The position numbers and the translations under genes are program-made. The notes under the pieces are model-generated. The model was not told the origin of the DNA. It searched no databases and saw only the letters and a program-made list of their open reading frames with translations. Below are positions 36,949 to 59,451 of a stretch of 59,451 bases of DNA, in pieces. The DNA is taken from assembly GCA_002686085.1 (NCBI GenBank), contig NZAC01000059.1:1-59451 (forward strand), written 5' to 3'. The stretch is from Roseibacillus sp. Its GTDB lineage: Bacteria > Verrucomicrobiota > Verrucomicrobiia > Verrucomicrobiales > Akkermansiaceae. Within the stretch, counting starts at the first letter, position 1; each line of letters opens with the position of its first letter.

Positions 36949-37102
36949 CGGGCTTCGAAACTAAATACGTATGCCCCGCTCAAAACGGAGACACTGACCT
37001 CCGACTCGTCCCAGTGAGCACCCCAAGGTAAGATTCTCACTGAAAAAACGAGATCTCGAGGGTAGTATCCGGTTGTTGCAGAGCCTGCTCTGCACGGCAG
37101 GG

Positions 37103-39637
37103 ATGGAATCCACACTCATCACATCGCGTATCGCCAACCTCACTCACGGGGGGCTGCTTTGCGCCCTTATCCTATTGGCTCCTACTGCTAATGCTAGCGG
37201 CTCCGATGACGCCCCCATTAACGCTCCGGGGACTGAGGGCAACCTCAGAGCAGGTAAAGACTTCTGGTCCTTTCAACCCATCACCCGCCCCTCTCCTCCT
37301 CCGGTTCAGGTGCCCAACTGGCCACAAACCAAAATCGACCACTTTATCCTCGCTGCCCACCACCGCCACAACCTCTCTCCGGTGGCCGATGCAACCGCCA
37401 CTACGCTTCTCAGGCGTATTTACTTCGATCTGATAGGGCTACCTCCGAGCCCTCCTCAAATCTTGGCCTTCCTTGAAGCATCCAGAATCAACCGAGAGGC
37501 AGCAATCGCAACTGTCATTGACAACCTCCTCTCGAGTCCCAGCTTCGGCGTCAAGTGGGCAAGACACTGGCTCGATATTGCCCGCTACTCGGAATCTACT
37601 GGAGGTGGCCGCACTCTCTTATTTGGTGAAGCATGGAGATACCGTGATTACGTGGTCAAGTCCTTCAATTCTGACAAACCCTATGACCGCTTCATCCGCG
37701 AGCAAATAGCTGGCGACCTGATGAAGAGCGGAACTCTCGAGGAGCAGCAACAGGCTTTGATTGCCACGGCGTTTCTCCTTCTGGGCCCAACCAATTATGA
37801 ACTTCAGGACAAGACGGTCCTTGAGATGGACATCATCGATGAGCAACTTGACACTATCGGAAAGACCTTCATGGGCTTAACCGTAGGCTGCGCCCGGTGC
37901 CACGATCACAAATTCGACCCAATTAATTCGGAAGACTACTACGGAATGGCGGGCATTCTAAAGGGAACCAAGGTTGTGATTCACAGCAATGTTTCTACTT
38001 GGAATAAGCGCCCCCTCCCACTCTCTCCTGAAGACGAACGACTTCACAAAAAGCGGGCAGCCCGCATCAAGACTCTTCAGCAGGAGATATCGCTCCTCCG
38101 CAAAAACAAGCCGAAGGCCTCTGTCCTGATAAGCTCCCTCAGCGGCATTGTGGTAGACGATGAAAAGGCCGAGAAAAAAGGAGCGTGGACCCGCTCAACC
38201 TCGAATAGTGGATATGTGGCTGCAAATTACCTTCATGATGGAGCCGCCGGCAAAGGAGAGAAAGAAGTCCGATACAGGGCTAGGATTCCCGGGGATGGGA
38301 AATTTGAAGTCCGCATCTCCTACACCGAAGGATCAAACAGGGATCGTAAAGTTCCTGTTATCGTCCGCCACGCCGATGGAGAAAAAATCAACTATGTTGA
38401 CCAAACCCGCCGCCCTCCTATTGATGGGAGCTTCATCTCACTCGGAACATACGACTTTCTCGCAGGCGACTGGGACGTCGTTATTATCTCCAATAAGGGA
38501 ACAACTGCACATGTCATCGCAGATGCGGTGCAGTTAATTCCTGAAGGGGAAGCCCCGAAAAGCATCAAGGCCACCTCTCCGGAGGAGACCGGGCGAACAA
38601 GAGCGCAGCTTGCCTCGCTAGAGAGCGAGCTCCAATCCTTAAAGGAAGCAGGAAGCGCTTCTGCGATGGTGATCGCTGCTGAGGAAGCGCCTGATCCCGG
38701 GGATATCCCTATCGCTCTGCGTGGTAACGCTCACGAAGCCGGGCCCAACGCCCCACGAGGCTTCATCAAAATTCTTCAATCGAATCCAAGTCCTGTGATA
38801 GCTCCAAAATCAAGCGGACGAGCAGAGCTCGCCGATTGGATTGCCAACCCCGAAAATCCTCTCACTGCCCGGGTGTACGTCAATCGGATTTGGCATCACC
38901 TCTTTGGTCGAGGGATCGTGCAGTCAGTCGACAACTTCGGTCAGATGGGCGATTCACCCTCAAACCCTGAGCTGCTCGACCACCTCTCAACCCTTTTTAT
39001 CGAACAAGGATGGTCCACCAAGGCCCTCATACGTAACATCATGTTGTCCAGAGTCTACCAACTGAGCTCTTTATCCACGCCTTCCCAAGCTTCTACTGAT
39101 GTTGAAAATCTCTATCATTGGCGCCAGAACCACCGGCGTCTTCAAGCTGAGGCCATTCGGGATTCTATTCTGTCGGTAAGCGGCACGCTCGATGAAAGAC
39201 TCGGTGGCAATACCGTGAAACCCGGCACTAAAACAGAGTATGGCTATCAATTTGGGGGGACACGGAGGAGCCTGTATACGCCCGTTTTCCGGAACACTCT
39301 GCCGGAGATTATGCAGGTTTTTGACTTCGCAGATCCTAACCTCGTAACAGGAGCCAGAACAACCAGCAGTGTTCCTACTCAGGCACTCTTTATGATGAAC
39401 AACCCGTTCGTACAAGAGCAGGCAGAACTCGCCGCGGAACGCCTGCTGAAGGAGCCCCTTTCTGAGGAGGCCTCTAGAATTAACCATTCCTACCTCCTTG
39501 CTCTTGGACGTCCCCCCACTGACCGCGAAGAGCAAATCCTTCTGTCATACCTGCAAACCAATACCAACTCCAAGGAATCTTGGACTCAGATCTTTCAGAG
39601 CCTCTTTGCCAGTCTGGACTTCAGACATCTTCATTAG
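37103..39637 (+). CDS. DUF1549/DUF1553 protein with golvesin-like insert
   Basis: An 844-residue exported protein. I chose ATG 37103 with GGCAGGG upstream, rather than the TTG at 37073; a signal segment follows (GGLLCALILLAPTANA). The N-terminal DUF1549 includes LLRRIYFDLIGLPPSP, KWARHWLDIARYSES and GCARCHDHKFDP, whose CxxCH could bind heme. The middle part (about 355-480) matches the golvesin C-terminal-like beta module (WTRSTSNSGYVAANYLHD; VIADAVQLIPEG). DUF1553 follows (NPENPLTARVYVNRIWHHLFG, SRVYQLSS, FVQEQAELAAERLL). Paired with the DUF1501 gene 81 bases downstream, a common Planctomycetes/Verrucomicrobia pair of unsettled function linked to polysaccharide use. Confidence 0.9.
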   Translation: MESTLITSRIANLTHGGLLCALILLAPTANASGSDDAPINAPGTEGNLRAGKDFWSFQPITRPSPPPVQVPNWPQTKIDHFILAAHHRHNLSPVADATATTLLRRIYFDLIGLPPSPPQILAFLEASRINREAAIATVIDNLLSSPSFGVKWARHWLDIARYSESTGGGRTLLFGEAWRYRDYVVKSFNSDKPYDRFIREQIAGDLMKSGTLEEQQQALIATAFLLLGPTNYELQDKTVLEMDIIDEQLDTIGKTFMGLTVGCARCHDHKFDPINSEDYYGMAGILKGTKVVIHSNVSTWNKRPLPLSPEDERLHKKRAARIKTLQQEISLLRKNKPKASVLISSLSGIVVDDEKAEKKGAWTRSTSNSGYVAANYLHDGAAGKGEKEVRYRARIPGDGKFEVRISYTEGSNRDRKVPVIVRHADGEKINYVDQTRRPPIDGSFISLGTYDFLAGDWDVVIISNKGTTAHVIADAVQLIPEGEAPKSIKATSPEETGRTRAQLASLESELQSLKEAGSASAMVIAAEEAPDPGDIPIALRGNAHEAGPNAPRGFIKILQSNPSPVIAPKSSGRAELADWIANPENPLTARVYVNRIWHHLFGRGIVQSVDNFGQMGDSPSNPELLDHLSTLFIEQGWSTKALIRNIMLSRVYQLSSLSTPSQASTDVENLYHWRQNHRRLQAEAIRDSILSVSGTLDERLGGNTVKPGTKTEYGYQFGGTRRSLYTPVFRNTLPEIMQVFDFADPNLVTGARTTSSVPTQALFMMNNPFVQEQAELAAERLLKEPLSEEASRINHSYLLALGRPPTDREEQILLSYLQTNTNSKESWTQIFQSLFASLDFRHLH

Positions 39638-39718
39638 GGCAGACTTGAAGCCTTATGATGCAGTCTATATGATTTTCCATCAAGAAGACGCGTTCTCATT
39701 CCAGCCTTCACTCCAACG

Positions 39719-41131
39719 ATGAATATCTCCCGCCGACATGCCCTTCGCGATATGGCCTGCGGCTTTGGCGGCCTCGCAATGGGCGCCCTCGCCCACCAGC
39801 AGGCAAGGGCTGACGGCGCAGTTCCTCCCGGAAAAATTCTCCACCATTCCCCCAAAGCCAAGCGCGTTATCTTTCTGTTTATGGCTGGAGGTGTCAGCCA
39901 CGTGGATTCCTACGACTATAAGGAACAACTCTTCCAAGATGACGGCAAAATGATCCGGTTCGATGATGCCAGAACCCTGGCAAAGACGCGCAAGATCGTT
40001 GAGCACCGGGTAATGAAACCACTGTGGGACTTCGAGCAATATGGTCAGACTGGACAGCATGTCAGTGAGCTCTTCCCGCATACTGCTCGGCATGTAGACG
40101 ACCTTTGCTTCCTGAAGGGGATGCACACCGAGGGAGTTGCCCACGGACCAAGCACTCTGTTTCTTCACACCGGATCGATAAACCTTGTCCGGCCCAGCAT
40201 GGGCTCGTGGACGAACTACGGATTAGGAACCGAAAATAACAACCTCCCGGGTTTCGTCAGCATTGGACCTGCGATGGGTAATGGTGGACCGCGTAATTTC
40301 AGTAATGCCTTCTTACCCGCGGCATACCAGGGAACTCCTGTGGGGAGAGCTGGCATTCCAGCAAAGGAGGCAACAATCAGGAATCTCGTCGACTTTCAAA
40401 ACAACCCTGCACGAAAGCGAGGCCAATACGAACTTCTGCGCCAATTAAACGCTGAACAGGCAGAGCGAATGCCGGGGGATGACAAGCTTGAAGCTGTCAT
40501 CAGCTCCTTTGAATTGGCTTGGCGGATGCAGAATAATGCCCCCGACATCCTTGATCTTTCTCAGGAAAGCCCCTCCACTCTCGAAATGTACGGTATCGGC
40601 GAAAAACACACCGACAATTTTGGACAATACTGTCTTCGAGCCCGCCGGCTCAGCGAGGCTGGCGTCCGTTACATACAGGTCAACTACACCGACAACTCCA
40701 ACAACCCTGCCTGGGATCAGCATTCCAATATGCCCAAGCATATCGAACACGCTCGTGCGACTGATAAACCGGTGGCAGGGCTTCTTGAAGACCTCAAGCG
40801 CCGCGGCCTCCTAGAGGATACCATCGTCTGGTGGGGAAGTGAATTCGGGCGGACTCCTTACGCTCAAAATAAAGGAACAGGCAGAGATCATAATCCAGAC
40901 GGGTTCACGGTCTGGCTGGCTGGCGGAGGGTTCAAACCCGGCATATCATACGGACAAACTGACAGCCACGGTCATCACGCCGTTGAGGAACAGGTTCACA
41001 TGCATGATCTCCACGCCACCATCCTGCACCAGCTTGGACTTGATCATAAGAAGCTCACCTACCGCTACGATGGCCGCGACTTCCGCCTTACCGATGTCTT
41101 CGGACGCGTTGTCAGAGAAATCTTATCCTGA
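39719..41131 (+). CDS. DUF1501 Tat-exported protein (sulfatase-like fold)
   Basis: A 470-residue protein. The N-terminus MNISRRHALRDMACGFGGLA has a twin-arginine-like RR motif before a short hydrophobic stretch. The core has FLFMAGGVSHVDSYDYK, ELFPHTARHVDDLCFLKGMH, GVRYIQVNYTDN and WWGSEFGRTPYAQNKGTGRDHNPDGF, family marks of DUF1501, which is related in fold to alkaline phosphatase/sulfatases. The partner DUF1549/DUF1553 gene is immediately upstream. Substrate unknown. Confidence 0.9.
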   Translation: MNISRRHALRDMACGFGGLAMGALAHQQARADGAVPPGKILHHSPKAKRVIFLFMAGGVSHVDSYDYKEQLFQDDGKMIRFDDARTLAKTRKIVEHRVMKPLWDFEQYGQTGQHVSELFPHTARHVDDLCFLKGMHTEGVAHGPSTLFLHTGSINLVRPSMGSWTNYGLGTENNNLPGFVSIGPAMGNGGPRNFSNAFLPAAYQGTPVGRAGIPAKEATIRNLVDFQNNPARKRGQYELLRQLNAEQAERMPGDDKLEAVISSFELAWRMQNNAPDILDLSQESPSTLEMYGIGEKHTDNFGQYCLRARRLSEAGVRYIQVNYTDNSNNPAWDQHSNMPKHIEHARATDKPVAGLLEDLKRRGLLEDTIVWWGSEFGRTPYAQNKGTGRDHNPDGFTVWLAGGGFKPGISYGQTDSHGHHAVEEQVHMHDLHATILHQLGLDHKKLTYRYDGRDFRLTDVFGRVVREILS

Positions 41132-51066: not shown

Positions 51067-51227
51067 TTTAAAAAGATTAGCGGTGGGTCTAGCGCACCCC
51101 GGTGCGAATCTGGCTTAAACCCCGGCTATTCAATGATCCTTTGGAGGAATTTCCCACTGGATTGGCCGTGCCTCCTCTGCAAGACTCTTCGCGGGAGGAG
51201 TTCGGTCCTTCCCCTACCAGCGATTGT

Positions 51228-54023
51228 ATGTCATCCGACCAAGGCCCCAACTCTAAGGACCAGCGTACGCCCTTACCCGATAGCCTGAAAAGGCAACTGG
51301 AAGCGTTTCGGGGGCGCTTATGGTTTATCAAGGTCGCAGAAGCCCTGTTAGCGGGCCTCTTCGGGCTTCTTTTTTCTTACCTGATCGTATTCGGCTTGGA
51401 TCGCATTTGGAACACCCCACCGACAGTGCGGCTCGCAGTTTTATTGGGCGGAACGTCTCTTTTCACCCTTTTCGCTCCCTACTGGATCCATCGATGGGTT
51501 TTCAGGCATCGCCGCGAAGCCCAGCTAGCGCGGTTAATCGCACGAAAGTTTCCTCGCTTGGGAGACCGGATGCTCGGCGTCGTGGAGCTTCAGGACCAGA
51601 CAGAGAGCAAAGAGGCTCTCTCCCCGGAGCTAAGAGCCGCTGCGATGAAAGCTGTAGCCCAGCAAGCAGAGGGCCGAAACTTGAAAGCTGCGTTACCGTC
51701 CCCCCGTCACTTGCGCTGGGGCCTGATGGTAGCTCTGACTGCGGCGATCATAGGGGCCGCCCTGTGGAAGGTTCCGAAACCAAGTCAGAACGCGTTTGAG
51801 CGCTGGCTCAAACCATTCTCGGATGTCCAACGCTATACGTTCACCAAGATCAGCGACTTTGAAGAGACCATGATCGTCCCGATGGACGAGCCTTTCAGTG
51901 TAACACTCACTCTGAGTGAACTTTCTGATCAAACGCCGACCAGTGGTGTTGCCAGATTCGGGATCCAAGAGCCTGTCTCGGCCCAGCTTCAGGACGACAA
52001 AAAGAGCTACACTTTTGATTTCCCCGGGCAGTCTGAGCCAGGGCGCGTCTTGATTAACATCGGAGATGCTCGACCTGTAATACAAGTCCTTCCACAAACC
52101 CGGCCCGCCATTAAATCGGTACGAGCCACCATTGTATACCCTGACTATCTGCAACTCCAAGATAAAACAAAGGAGCTCCGGGTGGGAACGCTTTCAGGTG
52201 ATGTAGTGGTAGGAAGCAAAATTTCTCTCGAGGCCACTACACTCGAGGGCCGCGAATTGAAAGCCGGGACGCTCACCATCGAGGAGCTCCCCAAAACCAC
52301 CGAGCGCGACCTATTTGACGACGACTTCGACCTCCCTGGAGACAATCAGAAACCCAGCGAAACTGCTGAGGACTCAAATTCAGGCGCCCCTCTCGAAGCG
52401 AACGCCCTGCCTGAGGGGGAGCCAGAAGCCGAGCCTGCTCCTCCGCGAATTCTTCCACTCAGGGTCACAGGTTCCCAGATGAATTCACCATCTATTTCTC
52501 TGCAATCTCAACCTCTCCAACTTCAGATGAACTGGGAAGACGTGAACGGTCTGGAGGATGCAGGAGGACACCGAATTCGAGTCGAGCCCCTCGATGACCA
52601 GAGGCCCCTCGCTTACATCCAGGATATTGAGAGACAAACTGTCCTCCTTGAAGAAGAGACCGTCAGCTTCGAAATTATCGCGGAAGACGACTACGGCACA
52701 AAGCACATAGGGTACGAGTGGACTGGCGAATTCACAAAGCCAACCGACGAGACCCCCTCTAGGGGAAGCCACATTCTGGAGCTCGGAGCACCCAACCAGC
52801 GGCGACTCTCGGGAGCCGTTCACTTTTCACCCAAAACCCGGAATATTCCTGCCCAGAAGCTCCAGGTGCGCGCCTTCGTCGAGGACTACTTTCCTGGACG
52901 AGGACGGATATATTCCGAGCCCATCACTCTCCATATCCTGACCAAAGACGAACAAGCCCAACTACTGAAAGACCAGTTCGATCGTATTATTGGTGAGCTC
53001 GAGGATGCCGCGCGCCGCGAACAGAATAATTTCGACGAGAACCGTCGAATCGAACAGGACGGCGCCGAAAAGCTTCAGGAAGAGGCCAACAAGGAAAGGC
53101 TGGAGCAGCAGGAGATGAATGAGGCAGAAAATATCGAAAAGATGTCTGAGCTGTCGGAGCGGATGGAAGAGCTTCTCGGAGAGGCGCTGAAAAATGGCGA
53201 AGTTGCGCCTGAAACCATGCAGAAGATGGCAGAGACCATGCAGAAAATGCAGGAACTCAGTCAGCAGGATATGCCCAAGGTGGAGCAGCAACTACAGGAA
53301 GCACAGGATCCGAGCTCAACTCCGGAACAGTCAGAGAAAGATCTTCAGGAGGCCATTGAGGAGCAGGAGAAGGTCTTGGAAAAGATGCGGGAGACGATAG
53401 ATGGTGCCAACGAAGCTAATCAGGACTTTGAGGCCAGCACCTTTGTAAACAGGTTACGTCGGGCTGCGTCCGAGGAAGATGGAATTGCGAACACCCTCAT
53501 TGCTTCCATCGATGACAAAGGCAAAACCACCATCGCAGGAACACCCTACGATGAATTGGATCCGGTAGACCAAAGGGTCCTCGGAGAACTTTCCATGCAG
53601 CAGCGAAGAACAGCGTCGGATGTTCACTGGATCCACGAAGACCTTGGACATTTTTATGCGCGAACCGAGAAAGAAGAGCACAAGCAGATCATGATCGAAA
53701 TGAGGGAGTCGAACATCGATTCTCATTTGGAAGCGGTTCGTGAGAAAATCGTCGCAAACCGTACGTTCATGGCGGTCGCTTCTGCTAAAAAGTGGGCCGC
53801 GCAGTTGAAAGCGTGGGCTGACATCCTCGACCCTCCTCAGGATCCTGCCGGGGCTGGAGGAGGCGGAGGAGGCGAAGGCCAGGAGCCTTCTCTCGACGAC
53901 AACGATTTTGAGTTCATGCTGAAGGTCATGAAGATGATCCAGACTGAACAGGATATCCGGGCGCGGACCCGGGCTCTGGAACAACTCCGCCGAACTCTCC
54001 ACTTACAGGATCTTCCCGAGTAG
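51228..54023 (+). CDS. Large membrane protein with coiled coil (DUF4175-like)
   Basis: A 931-residue protein. I chose ATG 51228 (MSSDQGPNSKDQ); the frame is open upstream to GTG 51102 but that part is not convincing. Two N-terminal helices (KVAEALLAGLFGLLFSYLIV; LAVLLGGTSLFTLFAPYWI) and a third (LMVALTAAIIGAALW) anchor it. A beta-rich middle (about 195-560) carries an acidic linker (DDDFDLPGDN). Residues about 600-790 form a long Glu/Gln/Met coiled coil (MQKMAETMQKMQELSQQDM). A Gly-rich hinge precedes a final helix pair. It resembles the large DUF4175-like proteins near MoxR/BatA-type clusters in this phylum, though no MoxR gene is visible here. Confidence 0.72.
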   Translation: MSSDQGPNSKDQRTPLPDSLKRQLEAFRGRLWFIKVAEALLAGLFGLLFSYLIVFGLDRIWNTPPTVRLAVLLGGTSLFTLFAPYWIHRWVFRHRREAQLARLIARKFPRLGDRMLGVVELQDQTESKEALSPELRAAAMKAVAQQAEGRNLKAALPSPRHLRWGLMVALTAAIIGAALWKVPKPSQNAFERWLKPFSDVQRYTFTKISDFEETMIVPMDEPFSVTLTLSELSDQTPTSGVARFGIQEPVSAQLQDDKKSYTFDFPGQSEPGRVLINIGDARPVIQVLPQTRPAIKSVRATIVYPDYLQLQDKTKELRVGTLSGDVVVGSKISLEATTLEGRELKAGTLTIEELPKTTERDLFDDDFDLPGDNQKPSETAEDSNSGAPLEANALPEGEPEAEPAPPRILPLRVTGSQMNSPSISLQSQPLQLQMNWEDVNGLEDAGGHRIRVEPLDDQRPLAYIQDIERQTVLLEEETVSFEIIAEDDYGTKHIGYEWTGEFTKPTDETPSRGSHILELGAPNQRRLSGAVHFSPKTRNIPAQKLQVRAFVEDYFPGRGRIYSEPITLHILTKDEQAQLLKDQFDRIIGELEDAARREQNNFDENRRIEQDGAEKLQEEANKERLEQQEMNEAENIEKMSELSERMEELLGEALKNGEVAPETMQKMAETMQKMQELSQQDMPKVEQQLQEAQDPSSTPEQSEKDLQEAIEEQEKVLEKMRETIDGANEANQDFEASTFVNRLRRAASEEDGIANTLIASIDDKGKTTIAGTPYDELDPVDQRVLGELSMQQRRTASDVHWIHEDLGHFYARTEKEEHKQIMIEMRESNIDSHLEAVREKIVANRTFMAVASAKKWAAQLKAWADILDPPQDPAGAGGGGGGEGQEPSLDDNDFEFMLKVMKMIQTEQDIRARTRALEQLRRTLHLQDLPE

Positions 54024-54083: not shown

Positions 54084-54494
54084 ATGAAACTACGTTTGCC
54101 CCTGCTTACAACTGGGACACTACTCTTCCTGACGGGATCCGCGGTATCGCAGGATACACCGGACCCAAAGCCCTCGGTTGAGCTCCCGAAAATCACTTAT
54201 CCCGACCCGGTCACCGAAGCTCAGAAAGAGGCTGTGGAAAAACACCGCGAAGGCGCACAGAACCTCGCCGGAGAACAAGACGAACTCGCTGCCGATGTTC
54301 AGGACCTGATCGAGGAGCAGACGGACGAAAAACTCATTGCCCTGCTGGAAGAAGTCGAAGAAGTCATGGCAGAAGTCATTGACTCGCTGGACGAGACCAA
54401 CACCGGCGGACCAACCATTGCTGCAGAAACTGAAATCATCGAAAAGATTTTTGAAGCCGCAAAGCAGAGGTCTCAACAAAGTGGCGGGACATGA
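54084..54494 (+). CDS. Small secreted protein, first part of a gene split by in-frame UGA
   Basis: A 136-residue protein with a signal peptide (LLTTGTLLFLTGSAVS). The mature part is helical and acidic (AAEQDE-like, LAGEQDELAADVQDLIEEQTD, IALLEEVEEVMAEVIDSL), like a coiled coil, and ends SQQSGGT at UGA 54492-54494. Downstream, four sense codons (Pro-Asp-Ser-Gly) in the same frame lead into the next open frame at ATG 54507, with no other stop. The two parts together would make about 228 residues. It may be one gene with a nonsense codon, a recoding site, or two coupled genes. Confidence 0.65.
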   Translation: MKLRLPLLTTGTLLFLTGSAVSQDTPDPKPSVELPKITYPDPVTEAQKEAVEKHREGAQNLAGEQDELAADVQDLIEEQTDEKLIALLEEVEEVMAEVIDSLDETNTGGPTIAAETEIIEKIFEAAKQRSQQSGGT

Positions 54495-54506: not shown

Positions 54507-54770
54507 ATGAGCATGGGTGCCATGCTCGATATGATGCAGCGGATGATGGGCCAGACTCCCGGACAAGGTCAGGGGGAACAAAAGGGCCAACCCGGCGACC
54601 AGGCGGGCGAAGGCCAGGAAGGCGCCTCTGACTCTGCCAACAAGGAATTCACAGATGCCGGCAAAGGCAAGAAGGAGGAGCGCACTATTGGCAAAAAGGC
54701 CGGTAAGGCAGGGTCGCATCTCCCTCCCGAGTTCCAAAAAGCTCTCGACTCGTACAATAAGAAGCGCTGA
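54507..54770 (+). CDS. Second part of the split protein: Met/Gly/Gln-rich tail
   Basis: An 87-residue frame continuing the frame of 54084-54494 after UGA. It starts MSMGAMLDMMQRMMGQTP and is then rich in Gln, Gly, Lys and Glu, ending LPPEFQKALDSYNKKR, a helix. Alone it has no signal peptide, so it would stay in the cytoplasm; joined to the upstream part it would be exported. It is 5 bases from the next gene. The call as an independent gene is weak. Confidence 0.5.
   Translation: MSMGAMLDMMQRMMGQTPGQGQGEQKGQPGDQAGEGQEGASDSANKEFTDAGKGKKEERTIGKKAGKAGSHLPPEFQKALDSYNKKR
54509..54527 (+). other. Perfect 8-bp stem-loop 14 bases after the in-frame UGA
   Basis: GAGCATGG (54509-54516) pairs fully with CCATGCTC (54520-54527), closing a GTG loop. 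The loop starts 22 bases after the UGA. This geometry fits the loose bacterial SECIS pattern (short loop with an early G, stem 4-16 bp), and also a readthrough stimulator. It overlaps ATG 54507 and ATG 54513, so it could equally control reinitiation. It may be chance. Confidence 0.4.
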
Positions 54771-54775
54771 TCGCG

Positions 54776-55768
54776 ATGAGACCTTTTTCTTTGGTGGTCG
54801 CAGCTGTTTTGCTGGCGACCTCTCAGGCCGGACTGGCTCAGGCCTTGCCACGGCGGCAGGACGACCCGATTCCACCGCAGGTTGATCAGATGTATGTCAA
54901 AGGGCTACGCTATCTTGCGGGAAGCCAGACGGAAAATGGCAACTGGCCAGACCGAAATGGGAGTGAGCCGGGTGTTGTTGGACTATGCGTGATGGCGTTC
55001 CTCGCGCACGGGGAAGACCCCAATCACGGACCCTATGCGCAAAATATCCGCAGAGGTATCGGCTTTATTCTGGAGAACCAGAACGAAACCAACGGTTACA
55101 TCGGTTCAAGCATGTATAACCACGGGTTTGCCACGCTCGCCTTGGCGGAGGCATACGGCGTCCTCAGGGAGGACAAGCTCGCCCCTGCCCTCAAGGAAGC
55201 GGTGGCCCTGATTCTCAGTGCACAGGAACGTAATAGCCGGGGCGCCTGGAGATACACCCCAGATAGTCAGGACGCCGACACAACCGTGACGGGGGCTCAG
55301 ATGGTTGCCCTCTACGCAGCGAGAAATGCGGGCATACCCGTACCTGAGGAAGCGCTCAAGAAGGGGCATGCCTTTATGAAAAGGTGCCGCGCATCAGACG
55401 GTGGTTACGGATACACCTCGGCGGGTAGCGGCAAGCCCACTCTCACCGCCATCGGATCCCTCTGTCTCGCCCTCGCCAAGGACAAAGACAACAAGGGCTA
55501 CAAGGCCAGCCTTGGATATTTGGGCAAACGTCTGAACTATCGAGATCGTTTTTACCCGTATTATTTTGAATATTACATGTCCCAAGCCCTCTTTCATGCT
55601 GATGAACAGGTCTGGCAGGAGTGGAACGCAAAAAACATCCGCTACCTTTCCACTGTGCAAGCCCGCGATGGAAGCTGGCCCGGAAACAAGGGAGCCGCTT
55701 TCAGCACATCAGGCGCCCTTCTCTCGATGGCCCTGAACTACCGGTTTCTGCCGATTTATGAGAAGTAG
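54776..55768 (+). CDS. Secreted prenyltransferase/squalene-oxidase-repeat protein
   Basis: A 330-residue protein with a signal peptide (PFSLVVAAVLLATSQAGLAQA). It has about five alpha/alpha-toroid repeats: NWPDRNGSEPGVVGLCVMAF, GYIGSSMYNHGFATLALAEA, GAWRYTPDSQDADTTVTGAQ, GGYGYTSAGSGKPTLTAIGS and DGSWPGNKGAAFSTSGALLS. The cyclase aspartate motif DxDD is absent, so it is probably a binding scaffold rather than an enzyme. It is 5 bases from the previous gene and overlaps the next by 11 bases, so it belongs to the operon. Confidence 0.85.
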   Translation: MRPFSLVVAAVLLATSQAGLAQALPRRQDDPIPPQVDQMYVKGLRYLAGSQTENGNWPDRNGSEPGVVGLCVMAFLAHGEDPNHGPYAQNIRRGIGFILENQNETNGYIGSSMYNHGFATLALAEAYGVLREDKLAPALKEAVALILSAQERNSRGAWRYTPDSQDADTTVTGAQMVALYAARNAGIPVPEEALKKGHAFMKRCRASDGGYGYTSAGSGKPTLTAIGSLCLALAKDKDNKGYKASLGYLGKRLNYRDRFYPYYFEYYMSQALFHADEQVWQEWNAKNIRYLSTVQARDGSWPGNKGAAFSTSGALLSMALNYRFLPIYEK

Positions 55769-57320
55769 CCATCTAACGGAGTGTGGTTCCCCTCTGCGTG
55801 TAACCACTGTTGCACTAGCTCTGGGGCTTGCCCTCTCATCCTCATTGCGTGGTCAAAACTCGGACCAGCATGAAGACCTTCTTCGGTTCCGTAATGGAGA
55901 CTCGTTGCACGGCGCCTTTCTTGGCCTCGGCGAGGGAGAGTTGCGTTGGCGCCACTCGGAAGCCGTCGAGCCGATTACCCTTCGAACCGAAAAGATCCGC
56001 AGACTTTCCTTCCATGGTGGCCGCGCTCGCAAAAACTTGCGTAGTCCCTCCTTTGTCCAGCTGTCGGACGGCGATCGAATCCCAGGAACGCTAGTAAGCC
56101 TGGACCCGGAGAGATTGGAAATCGACACGGAGTTCGCGGGGCGAGTGTCGATTCCCCGGGAATATGTCAGCCAGATCGCGCCTGCTCCGCATGGAGGACA
56201 CGTTCAATATATTGGCCCCTTTAGCGATAGTGAATGGAATATCATCACCCCTCCGGAACTCCCCGCTACCGACAATCCAGAAGAGAACCCCGAGGAGAAC
56301 AAGGAGGAGGCCGAGGAACAGGATCCTCCAGAGGCCCCATGGGTCTTCAGCGGTGGGGCATACTACAGCAACGGACAACTCCCTATCGCAGTGGATACAC
56401 ATGCCGGGGATCGTTCCCGGATTCGCTTCACCTTGGCATGGCGTAACCGTCTCAATACAGCAATTGCATTCCACGCTACCATGGAAAGGCCAGATCAGGC
56501 CAACGAGGAGGGCGAAGAAAAAGAGAATGACGAAAAGCGCAAGCAGGCGCCGAATGCAGGCTCCAAGTTCAAAGAGGGATTCGCTTATACCTACGGGCAC
56601 AGCTACGTTCTGACTATCTACTCCAATTATGCCCAAATCTACCGCTGTGACTTTACGGAGGATGGTAATGCGGACATAGACCGCCTCTCCAACTCCAGCG
56701 CCAATCTGCGCCTCGACGAAGCAGGTCAGGCCGAGTTTGAGATTCGTTGTGACCGGCCTGCCGGCACCATAGCCCTCTTTGCCAATGGCAGATTTGTCAG
56801 CCAATGGACTGATAGACAGGGATATGTTGGCAGTGGATCACACCTTGCCTTCGCCTCTCAGAACTCCTCAGCTCGTCTCCGCATATCTGACGTCCTCGTG
56901 ACCGGTTGGAACGGCATGATGGACAGTGCCCAAAGCATGGAGACCGAGGACCGGGACGTGGTTCTCCTGACCAACGGCACAGATCGGTTTTCCGGCAAGC
57001 TGGAATCACTCCAGGATGGACAGTTTCTGATCAAGGGAACCTACGCCGAAATGAAGGTTCCCGCTGACGAAATTCAGGAAATTCGCCTGGCGTCCTCCAA
57101 CCAGACGGAGGAAGACGAAGAATGGGCGAGTCGGCAGCGGCTACGCCTCCTCCTGAAGCCTCACGGGCGCTTGACGCTTTCCCCGATTAAGGCAAACGCT
57201 GATACCCTGAGAGGGCGCCACCCCGCCCTCGGTGAAATTAACCTGAATCTCCGCTATGCGGGCCTGATGGAATTCTCTTTTGGATCAAGCATCTTGGACT
57301 CATGGGACGACGACTACTGA
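55758..57320 (+). CDS. Secreted paralogue 1 of three: NGD repeats flanking a LamG-like domain
   Basis: A 520-residue protein with a signal peptide (VTTVALALGLALSSSLRG). Two beta repeats come first, A at 41-85 (FRNGDSLHGAFLGL) and B at 98-141 (QLSDGDRIPGTLVSL, ending SIPREYVSQI). A LamG/jelly-roll-like region spans about 195-385, with an acidic low-complexity insert at 173-194 and another near 248-262. Two more repeats follow, C at 400-444 (LLTNGTDRFSGKLESL) and D at 461-508. It is likely an extracellular or periplasmic binding protein. It starts inside the end of the toroid gene, 11 bases overlapping. No enzyme motif seen. Confidence 0.7.
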   Translation: MRSSHLTECGSPLRVTTVALALGLALSSSLRGQNSDQHEDLLRFRNGDSLHGAFLGLGEGELRWRHSEAVEPITLRTEKIRRLSFHGGRARKNLRSPSFVQLSDGDRIPGTLVSLDPERLEIDTEFAGRVSIPREYVSQIAPAPHGGHVQYIGPFSDSEWNIITPPELPATDNPEENPEENKEEAEEQDPPEAPWVFSGGAYYSNGQLPIAVDTHAGDRSRIRFTLAWRNRLNTAIAFHATMERPDQANEEGEEKENDEKRKQAPNAGSKFKEGFAYTYGHSYVLTIYSNYAQIYRCDFTEDGNADIDRLSNSSANLRLDEAGQAEFEIRCDRPAGTIALFANGRFVSQWTDRQGYVGSGSHLAFASQNSSARLRISDVLVTGWNGMMDSAQSMETEDRDVVLLTNGTDRFSGKLESLQDGQFLIKGTYAEMKVPADEIQEIRLASSNQTEEDEEWASRQRLRLLLKPHGRLTLSPIKANADTLRGRHPALGEINLNLRYAGLMEFSFGSSILDSWDDDY

Positions 57321-58645
57321 TGACCACAATTTTCAAATCTGCGGGCATGGCAGCCAGCGCCCTGCTTCTTGTCCTTCCGGTGCTCTCTGCAGAGGACAAA
57401 CTGGAACTGAATGATGGAAGCGTCCTTAGCGGCAAGGTTCTTTCTATTTTTGGAAATGACAAGGTCGTCCTTGATTCCAACCTCAGCGAAGAGCCGATCC
57501 ACCTCAGAACCCAGTCTCTAAGCTCAATCAACTTTCGCAAAGATACCGAAAACCCTAACAAGGCTCCCCAGCTCCTCCATCTCGTGAATGGAGATGTATT
57601 ACCGGGAACTCTCCAGAATCTCGATAGTAAGGAGGTCAGCTTTCTGACGGGATATGCCAATGAGCTGACTATTCCCCGCAACTATGTGCGCTCCATTGAC
57701 TTTGGTGTTACCCCTCAAAAACTTGTCTACTCTGGACCGAAGCCCATCACCGAGTGGAGTGATAATGACGACTGGGAATGGGAAAACGGTAGTCTTACCT
57801 GCAACACCAGCGGTACAATTGCCGCAGAGGGTGTTCTCCCGCGACAGTTCATCCTGCGATTCCGATTAGAATGGGAGAACGACCCTAATTTCCGAATCTA
57901 CTTTTGTGATGATTTCCTGAAGAGAACCGGAAATGCCGATAGATATTACTTCGAGGTAAATTCAATGGGGTCGCAGCTAAAAAGGCAGACCACCATGGGC
58001 GGGCGCCGCTGGCATACTCTGGCGCAATCACATCAGAAGCCCCGCGAATACCCAAGCCGCGCAATAGACGTTGAATTGCGTGTGAACCGGGACAGCCGGC
58101 AAATTTACCTTTACCTGAACAGCGAGAAAATCCAGCGCACTCCTGACCCTATCGACAGCTTTCCTACAGGGACCGGGATCATGCTCCAAAGCCAGGCGGG
58201 TGGCGACTTAAAGAACATTGTCAGCGATCTCGAAATCTACGAGTGGGACGCTGTCACCGAACTTCGGCGCGATGAAGGGCACGAGGATCCTGAAACCGAC
58301 GGGCTGGTTGACGTCGAAGGGCAGCACCTCAGTGGGTCTGCGCTTCAACTCCAGCAAGGCGCGCAGGGTGATCAGATCATTTTTGAAAGCCGCTTCAACA
58401 AACAACCACTTGAAGTTCAAACCTCGAGAATCTCCTCTCTCTATTTCAAGGATTCCCCACAAGCGCCCGCGGGACAGGCTCCGGTTGAACTCTCTCTTAC
58501 CGGCGGAGGATCCCTGCAGTGTGCCAGCCTGGACATGAAAGACTCCACGATTGTGGCAACGCACCCACTCCTTGGACAATTAACTCTCGACCGAAGCACC
58601 CTTAAACGTCTGGCGATTGGGGCCTCCGAGAAAAACGGATCATGA
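57320..58645 (+). CDS. Secreted paralogue 2 of three
   Basis: A 441-residue protein from ATG 57320, sharing one base (TGATG) with the previous stop; an in-frame ATG at 57302 is also possible. The signal peptide is AASALLLVLPVLSA. Repeats A (27-72, ELNDGSVLSGKVLSI) and B (85-128, LVNGDVLPGTLQNLDSKEV, ending TIPRNYVRSIDF) precede a LamG-like part (145-310; FRLEWENDPNFRIYF). C (328-376) and D (388-432) follow. The order is the same as in paralogue 1, which indicates tandem duplication followed by divergence. Confidence 0.7.
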   Translation: MTTIFKSAGMAASALLLVLPVLSAEDKLELNDGSVLSGKVLSIFGNDKVVLDSNLSEEPIHLRTQSLSSINFRKDTENPNKAPQLLHLVNGDVLPGTLQNLDSKEVSFLTGYANELTIPRNYVRSIDFGVTPQKLVYSGPKPITEWSDNDDWEWENGSLTCNTSGTIAAEGVLPRQFILRFRLEWENDPNFRIYFCDDFLKRTGNADRYYFEVNSMGSQLKRQTTMGGRRWHTLAQSHQKPREYPSRAIDVELRVNRDSRQIYLYLNSEKIQRTPDPIDSFPTGTGIMLQSQAGGDLKNIVSDLEIYEWDAVTELRRDEGHEDPETDGLVDVEGQHLSGSALQLQQGAQGDQIIFESRFNKQPLEVQTSRISSLYFKDSPQAPAGQAPVELSLTGGGSLQCASLDMKDSTIVATHPLLGQLTLDRSTLKRLAIGASEKNGS

Positions 58646-59451
58646 AGAAGTTCCTCCTATTACTCCCCTTCCTTTCGGCGATCGCTCTCGGACAACAGAA
58701 ACCCGGGAAAGAAGACGCAGGCAATTCCGACCTCCCAGTGGAGTCTGATTCAGTAGCGGGATTCCTCACCTTTGCCAACGAGGACAAAATAAGTGGCAGC
58801 CCCGAGGGAATTGACGAGGACGGAAATCTCCGCTGGAACGCTGGATTTCTCCACCAGCCTATCCCTGTCAAACCATCCTCCCTGCTGGAGATGCGGCTGG
58901 AAGGAGGTGCTTCATTACAAGACGCGAATGACCACCAAGCCCTTCTCCTCCTCACCAATGGAGATACCCTGCGCGGCCAGCTTGACGCCCTCGACGACGA
59001 GCACGTCACTCTGCAAACATGGTACGGCGGCCCTCTCAAAATTCGCCGGACGATGGCTTCGGACCTTGAAATTCAACGGGCAAATCAGACGGTGTATTCG
59101 GGACCAGAAGACTTTGATTCGTGGATTATTGAAGGAGAAAAGGACGCCTGGAGTCTCAATGCCGGGAGCCTTTCATCCAATAAGGGCGCCGGCATCGCCA
59201 GAGAAATCAAAACCCCTGACCGCTGCCGCATCCAGTTTGATCTGGCCTGGAGAAACTCTCTTCGGTTTCGCGTTCTTCTCCTTTCTGACAAAGGGTCGAC
59301 CACTCAGCCTGACAATTGTTACGACTTGGTCTGTCAACGCCGCTTTGTCTACCTCAGAAAGCGCTGGATTGATGGAGCCTCGGGAGGCTCCAAGATCGTC
59401 GGCCAGGCAAACATCCCCGAGCTTGCGGAAAAGGAAAGTGTCCGGTTCGAG
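58642..59451 (+). CDS. Secreted paralogue 3 of three (partial, runs off right edge)
   Basis: The frame from ATG 58642 overlaps the previous stop by four bases (ATGA) and stays open for 270 codons to the window end. The signal peptide is KKFLLLLPFLSAIALG. Repeat A (38-86, FANEDKISGSPEGI) is diverged; repeat B (99-144) is clear (LLTNGDTLRGQLDALDDEHV). The LamG-like part begins near 157 (WIIEGEKDAWSLNAGSLSS; IQFDLAWRNSLRFRVLLL). The C-terminal repeats are not visible. Confidence 0.7.
   Translation, partial: MKKFLLLLPFLSAIALGQQKPGKEDAGNSDLPVESDSVAGFLTFANEDKISGSPEGIDEDGNLRWNAGFLHQPIPVKPSSLLEMRLEGGASLQDANDHQALLLLTNGDTLRGQLDALDDEHVTLQTWYGGPLKIRRTMASDLEIQRANQTVYSGPEDFDSWIIEGEKDAWSLNAGSLSSNKGAGIAREIKTPDRCRIQFDLAWRNSLRFRVLLLSDKGSTTQPDNCYDLVCQRRFVYLRKRWIDGASGGSKIVGQANIPELAEKESVRFE

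Follow-up and report, generated by a model that had tools for sequence, protein, structure and literature searches.

MoxR proteins and their VWA partners act as chaperone and co-chaperone (PMC7159879). MoxR/Bat operons are widespread, and their targets are mostly unknown (PMC5700661, PMC7159879). As cited in PMC5700661, defects in the MoxR operon cmd of Rhizobium alter the envelope and the cell shape. Here, three adjacent genes, A, B, and C, are compared with these operons and with the Sm-like and lectin-like proteins that their products resemble. The genes lie at the 3′ end of the window, which is the whole stretch of DNA analyzed (contig C59, 59,451 bases, of a genome of 3.95 Mb), and all of their features and those of the genes directly upstream are on the forward strand. 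Roseibacillus/Akkermansiaceae are the nearest named relatives, which makes this a genome of Verrucomicrobiota. A PSD1/DUF1549-type protein with a Golvesin_C domain, adjoining a DUF1501 protein, is encoded at 37073-41131 of the same window. Our main reading places the three exported products, as subunits, in a single envelope complex of ancient origin in Verrucomicrobiota; with the whole mechanism counted in, including a glycan-binding scaffold and MoxR, we give it a probability of roughly 0.45.

Three tandem paralogs share one architecture

Gene A (55758-57320; 520 aa) was delineated from its ORF, profile comparison, and an AlphaFold2 model, gene B (57302-58645; 447 aa) was likewise modeled with AlphaFold2, and gene C (58642-59451) is open at the contig end, with 270 of about 466 aa. 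Complete C proteins of the closest relatives have 466 aa and a second half as in A and B. B and C overlap by 4 bases. A and B overlap by 19 bases from the first ATG of B and by 1 base from an alternative ATG at 57320; thus, the overlaps of 1-4 bases reported in the first-pass annotation hold for B and C, and for A and B they fit the second start of B only.

In profile comparison, with a full-length C taken from a relative, the three proteins align with one another end to end (probability 100) at pairwise identities of about 20-30%. Each begins with a hydrophobic N-terminal signal, signal peptides being called from hydrophobicity alone. A, B, and C are tandem paralogs in which the signal is followed by two units of ~50 aa, a beta-sandwich, and two further units. 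The same order had been read by eye for the two complete proteins, and it is borne out by profile self-comparison and by the models of A and B; the incomplete third gene indeed repeats the N-terminal half, with two significant units. It is close to certain that A, B, and C have this architecture and belong to the gene module described below.

The repeat units

Profile self-comparison placed the internal repeats at residues of about 33-86, 93-146, 397-447, and 457-511 of A, at residues 28-80, 82-138, 329-384, and 391-443 of B, and at residues 37-92, 96-150, 345-398, and 406-456 of the full-length C of a relative. When single units were compared as profiles, most pairs among units 1-3 of A, B, and C were linked, the majority at more than 84%; the fourth units of A and B linked to units 2 and 4, and that of C was marginal.

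A leave-out profile was built from 122 units of distant genera, with the window and its near kin excluded, and was run on the 822 six-frame ORFs of the window. Eight units were significant, every one within A, B, or C, and no match was found outside these genes among the 822 ORFs. In A, they are the Sm-like barrels of unit 1 (55869-56021; i-E 1e-12; model strands at residues 40-84), unit 2 (56046-56192; i-E 4.5e-12; also seen in the model), and unit 3 (56949-57098; i-E 2e-14). Those of B are unit 1 (57392-57541; i-E 1.3e-7) and unit 2 (57563-57715; i-E 2.2e-14), both also seen in the model, and unit 3 (58292-58459; i-E 5.2e-7); those of C are unit 1 (58762-58905; i-E 5.9e-8) and unit 2 (58933-59073; i-E 2.2e-17). 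Two divergent units were below significance with this profile and are drawn from orthologue profiles and models: unit 4 of A (57126-57293), a barrel with profile links to A2 and B4 and model strands at residues 462-505, and unit 4 of B (58472-58633; i-E 3.1), with profile links to B2 and A4. With the full profile, which includes the window units, all seven matches at E ≤ 1e-3 in the whole genome fall in the A-B-C stretch.

Fold of the repeat units

Mean pLDDT was 86.9 in the AlphaFold2 model of B and 79.7 in that of A. DSSP assigned the order strand-strand-strand-strand-short helix-strand to all eight units of A and B, i.e., a barrel of five strands in which a short helix precedes the fifth, and this strand order agrees with the Sm/LSm/Hfq topology in each of the eight. 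On the point that the first-pass annotation had named as decisive, whether the segments fold alike, all eight are thus predicted to form the same barrel.

The repeat profile matched Hfq with a probability of 77 and Sm with a probability of 76, vs. below 1 for SH3, CspA, and ubiquitin. Column-shuffled profiles reached at most 11 vs. 24 for the real profile. In an independent PDB sequence search, the matches were weak and mostly to Hfq, Lsm, and SmD1. Some orthologues gave weak matches to the RimP C-terminal SH3 domain. A barrel of Sm/SH3 type had been suggested from the sequence; its Sm-like half stands, and for its SH3 half the one SH3 sequence compared, that of c-Src, gave a probability of 0.6 vs. 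77 for Hfq. Curated families were not reached: no Pfam or NCBIfam family was accepted for A, B, C, or the orthologues scanned, and the Sm/LSm/Hfq cut-offs were missed both by A, B, and C (LSM E 0.12, 12.5 bits vs. 23.4) and by the orthologues (best LSM E 0.00044, best Hfq E 0.014).

Within the phylum, one unit also occurs near residues 20-90 of DUF481 proteins (7/7 scanned proteins were DUF481; loci L177, L178, L179, L180, L183, L184, and L185). PF04338, the outer-membrane barrel domain, had no match in A, B, or C, and DUF481 relatives sought on plasmids gave no match. A 165-aa protein with a single unit lacks the barrel domain (L186:1034-1531), and elsewhere in the phylum 23 repeat matches are spread over several loci of one genome (G244; L187, L188, L195). 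Weak NCBIfam matches to Leptospira and archaeal families suggest that the unit may be spread more widely still. Because it is shared with DUF481 proteins and resembles Hfq and Sm, the unit is assigned to this known fold, of which it is a branch without a name, and is not a new fold. Hence, the earlier view of an unnamed repeat holds in that no family is reached at any curated cut-off, but the repeat is neither private to these proteins nor new in fold.

If the resemblance to Hfq and Sm extended to function, the units would be Hfq-like nucleic acid binders that act outside the cytoplasm. The profile resemblance that speaks for this is confined to the Sm1-like half of the unit. Moreover, A, B, and C are exported, an IPR-like stretch stands where Hfq has its YKHA RNA-binding stretch, and the same unit precedes an outer-membrane barrel in the DUF481 proteins. 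Nucleic acid binding is therefore highly improbable. For subunits of one envelope complex, the barrels would rather serve oligomerization.

The central beta-sandwich

Between its two pairs of units, A is predicted to carry a ConA-like beta-sandwich (56196-56927; Foldseek match to CBM66, 4b1m_C, TMt 0.73), in which two acidic insertions, residues 169-188 and 249-272, were modeled at low confidence. The ConA/L-type-lectin-like sandwich of B (57716-58255) matched ERGIC-53 in VIA with Z 17.9 (168 residues, rmsd 2.5) and CBM66 with Z 16.8, and the VIA matches of the whole model are sandwich matches throughout. C, which matches A and B over its whole length by profile, holds an incomplete sandwich domain (59098-59451). 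The LamG-like middle proposed earlier is thereby supported at the level of fold. Family profiles of LamG, L-type lectin, and CBM66 had no match in the window proteins, and the best match to Laminin_G_3 (E 0.0085, in one C orthologue) is below the cut-off. Foldseek ranked botulinum-neurotoxin binding domains and NTNH highest; as their TM-scores lie at about 0.1-0.33 and their identity at about 10%, these matches reflect the shared beta-sandwich fold only and are no sign of a toxin.

GH16/DUF1080-type proteins have the same sandwich fold, and nine of the 71 B proteins show weak matches to PF06439 (3-keto-disaccharide hydrolase; best E 0.0013). The sandwich could accordingly be an enzyme, related to 3-keto-disaccharide hydrolases or laminarinases, that the barrels position on a polysaccharide, and the operon a carbohydrate-processing cluster. 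Every PF06439 match is below the cut-off, however, and the top structural matches are to binding domains (ERGIC-53, CBM66). Furthermore, no transporter, SusC/D, or glycoside hydrolase gene is conserved as a neighbor of A-B-C, and the genes that are co-conserved with them encode a membrane coiled-coil protein, the toroid, and Bat-type proteins. We consider an enzyme unlikely; as part of one envelope complex, the sandwich may bind glycans.

A co-inherited gene module

A-B-C stand at the end of a module whose order is a membrane-anchored coiled-coil protein, a small coiled-coil protein, an alpha/alpha toroid, and one to three repeat proteins. In the window, the first is a 973-aa protein of no Pfam or NCBIfam family (51102-54023), which co-occurs with A, B, and C in the class and has hydrophobic segments near its N-terminus and a long, charged/coiled C-terminal half. 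It is followed by a small charged protein, probably a coiled coil, with a signal-like N-terminus (54084-54494), which some families have as a fusion with the large protein, and by an 87-aa Gly/Gln-rich protein (54507-54770), which relatives carry joined to the preceding ORF. The exported alpha/alpha-toroid (squalene-cyclase-like) protein (54776-55768; PF13243 E 2e-9; A3 alignment) is the most conserved neighbor of A-B-C. At one locus, the toroid gene is in two tandem copies (L148:6447-8475).

The order toroid-A-B-C is strict in 66 of 80 toroid-gene loci; most of the others are cut by contig ends, and four have B and C but no A. An A gene is present in 74 of the 80. Presence in the class was called at scores of at least 474 bits for the 973-aa protein (plus a fragmented copy in G087), at least 313 bits for the toroid, and E < 1e-9 for C, thresholds that were chosen after gaps in the score lists were visible. 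The 188 genomes all belong to a single class and hence are not independent of one another; among them, the membrane protein was found in 43, the toroid orthologue in 42, a strong C match in 42, and all three in 41, and the module is absent from 145. The co-occurrence with upstream genes that the first-pass annotation had proposed to check is thus evident. Two genomes are exceptions: G101 (74% complete) is without C, and G087, a fragmented assembly, has the fragmented membrane-protein copy and C at a contig edge, with no toroid orthologue found. Genus g3, which we take to be Akkermansia, has all three parts in 12 species and none in eight (G016, G116, G132, G146, G160, G169, G181, and G186). 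A, B, and C are kept or lost with the membrane and toroid proteins, and they are therefore suggested to be subunits of one cell-envelope machine.

In the phylogenetic tree, A forms one well-supported group (100/99), as does C (95/97); B groups with one of the two g3 (Akkermansia-type) copies, and the other g3 copy is near C. Judging from this tree, A, B, and C are each an old lineage that predates the diversification of the family. Elsewhere in the class, families carry between one and three repeat-protein copies, some fused into proteins of 990-1160 aa; such double-length proteins (about 990-1160 aa) occur at L053, L056, L165, and L166, the last with an additional 1009-aa repeat protein upstream of its toroid gene.

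Strong divergence, export, and a lectin-like fold would also be expected of three independent adhesins, i.e., surface lectins that differ in ligand and are encoded in one operon for co-expression only. Yet A, B, and C are strictly retained, and in order, with partners that are not adhesins, and their dN/dS of 0.04-0.10, where computable, indicates strong purifying selection on all three and not diversification. A second membrane segment is also absent from A, B, and C, and lipobox matches are few. Independent adhesins are quite unlikely on these grounds, and co-retention and co-occurrence favor A, B, and C as subunits of one assembly, probably located in the periplasm.

Association with MoxR/Bat genes

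In several other families, at six loci (L154, L160, L191, L192, L193, and L196), the module comes directly after a VWA/GATase1-like gene, which is preceded by BatA where the sequence reaches. For L191 and L193, a Pfam scan of the sequence upstream (L208 and L209) confirmed DUF58. In the genome of the window, the orthologues of the DUF58-BatA-GATase1-like genes, which are the best matches there, lie together with MoxR on another contig (C70), apart from the module, and it is in this own-genome cluster only that MoxR (AAA_3) was identified. Since the MoxR cluster is not adjacent there, the link of MoxR to the module is indirect in Akkermansiaceae. A second Bat cluster (G000 contig C63; L201) has relatives of the DUF58, BatA, and VWA/GATase1-like genes, then a 577-aa membrane-protein relative, a protein of 1061 aa, and a toroid protein of its own. 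The co-conserved upstream module and the MoxR/Bat link are the key fact about this locus and lie outside the region covered by the first-pass annotation, whose interpretation as a whole is partly supported.

A possible envelope complex and its comparison with known systems

In the proposed complex, the 973-aa membrane-anchored coiled-coil protein would fix the assembly to the inner membrane, and two further proteins, the toroid and the small coiled coil, would serve as adaptors. In the periplasm, a hetero-oligomer of A, B, and C would present one putative glycan-binding beta-sandwich per subunit, flanked on either side by a pair of Sm-like barrels, and the subunits may be held together by strand pairing of these barrels, as happens in the rings of Sm and Hfq. 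Assembly or remodeling would be powered by a MoxR ATPase and its DUF58/BatA/VWA partners. Rather doubtful, and offered tentatively, is the wider proposal of an undescribed Verrucomicrobiota envelope machine: a squalene-cyclase-like toroid would be surrounded by a hetero-oligomeric lectin scaffold built by extracytoplasmic Sm-like barrels, a MoxR/Bat chaperone system would assemble the machine, and the unit would link it to DUF481 outer-membrane barrels. Literature searches found nothing on a toroid-A-B-C operon or on DUF481 with Sm-like domains. The module offers concrete, co-inherited, exported candidate partners for MoxR/Bat systems, present in the genus taken to be Akkermansia, and in its unit the Sm-like fold is put to use in exported proteins, as it also is in DUF481 outer-membrane proteins.

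The units share with Sm/LSm/Hfq (PF01423, PF17209) the five-strand barrel, the NG-x-L-x-G motif, and the short helix before strand 5. They differ in falling below every curated cut-off, in lacking the Hfq YKHA and Sm IRG motifs as well as, in the models, the N-terminal helix, and in being exported as four copies per chain in two pairs. DUF481 proteins (PF04338) have the same NGD unit at their N-terminus, but as one unit before an outer-membrane barrel, whereas A, B, and C have four around a sandwich. The middle domain shares its ConA sandwich fold with L-type lectins, CBM66, and LamG (Z up to 17.9) but only about 10% identity. As for MoxR-DUF58-BatA (Bat/Cmd) operons, in other Verrucomicrobiota the module directly follows DUF58-BatA-GATase1-like genes; unlike those operons, it adds the toroid and the Sm-like/lectin proteins, and in the family of the window it has separated from the MoxR cluster.
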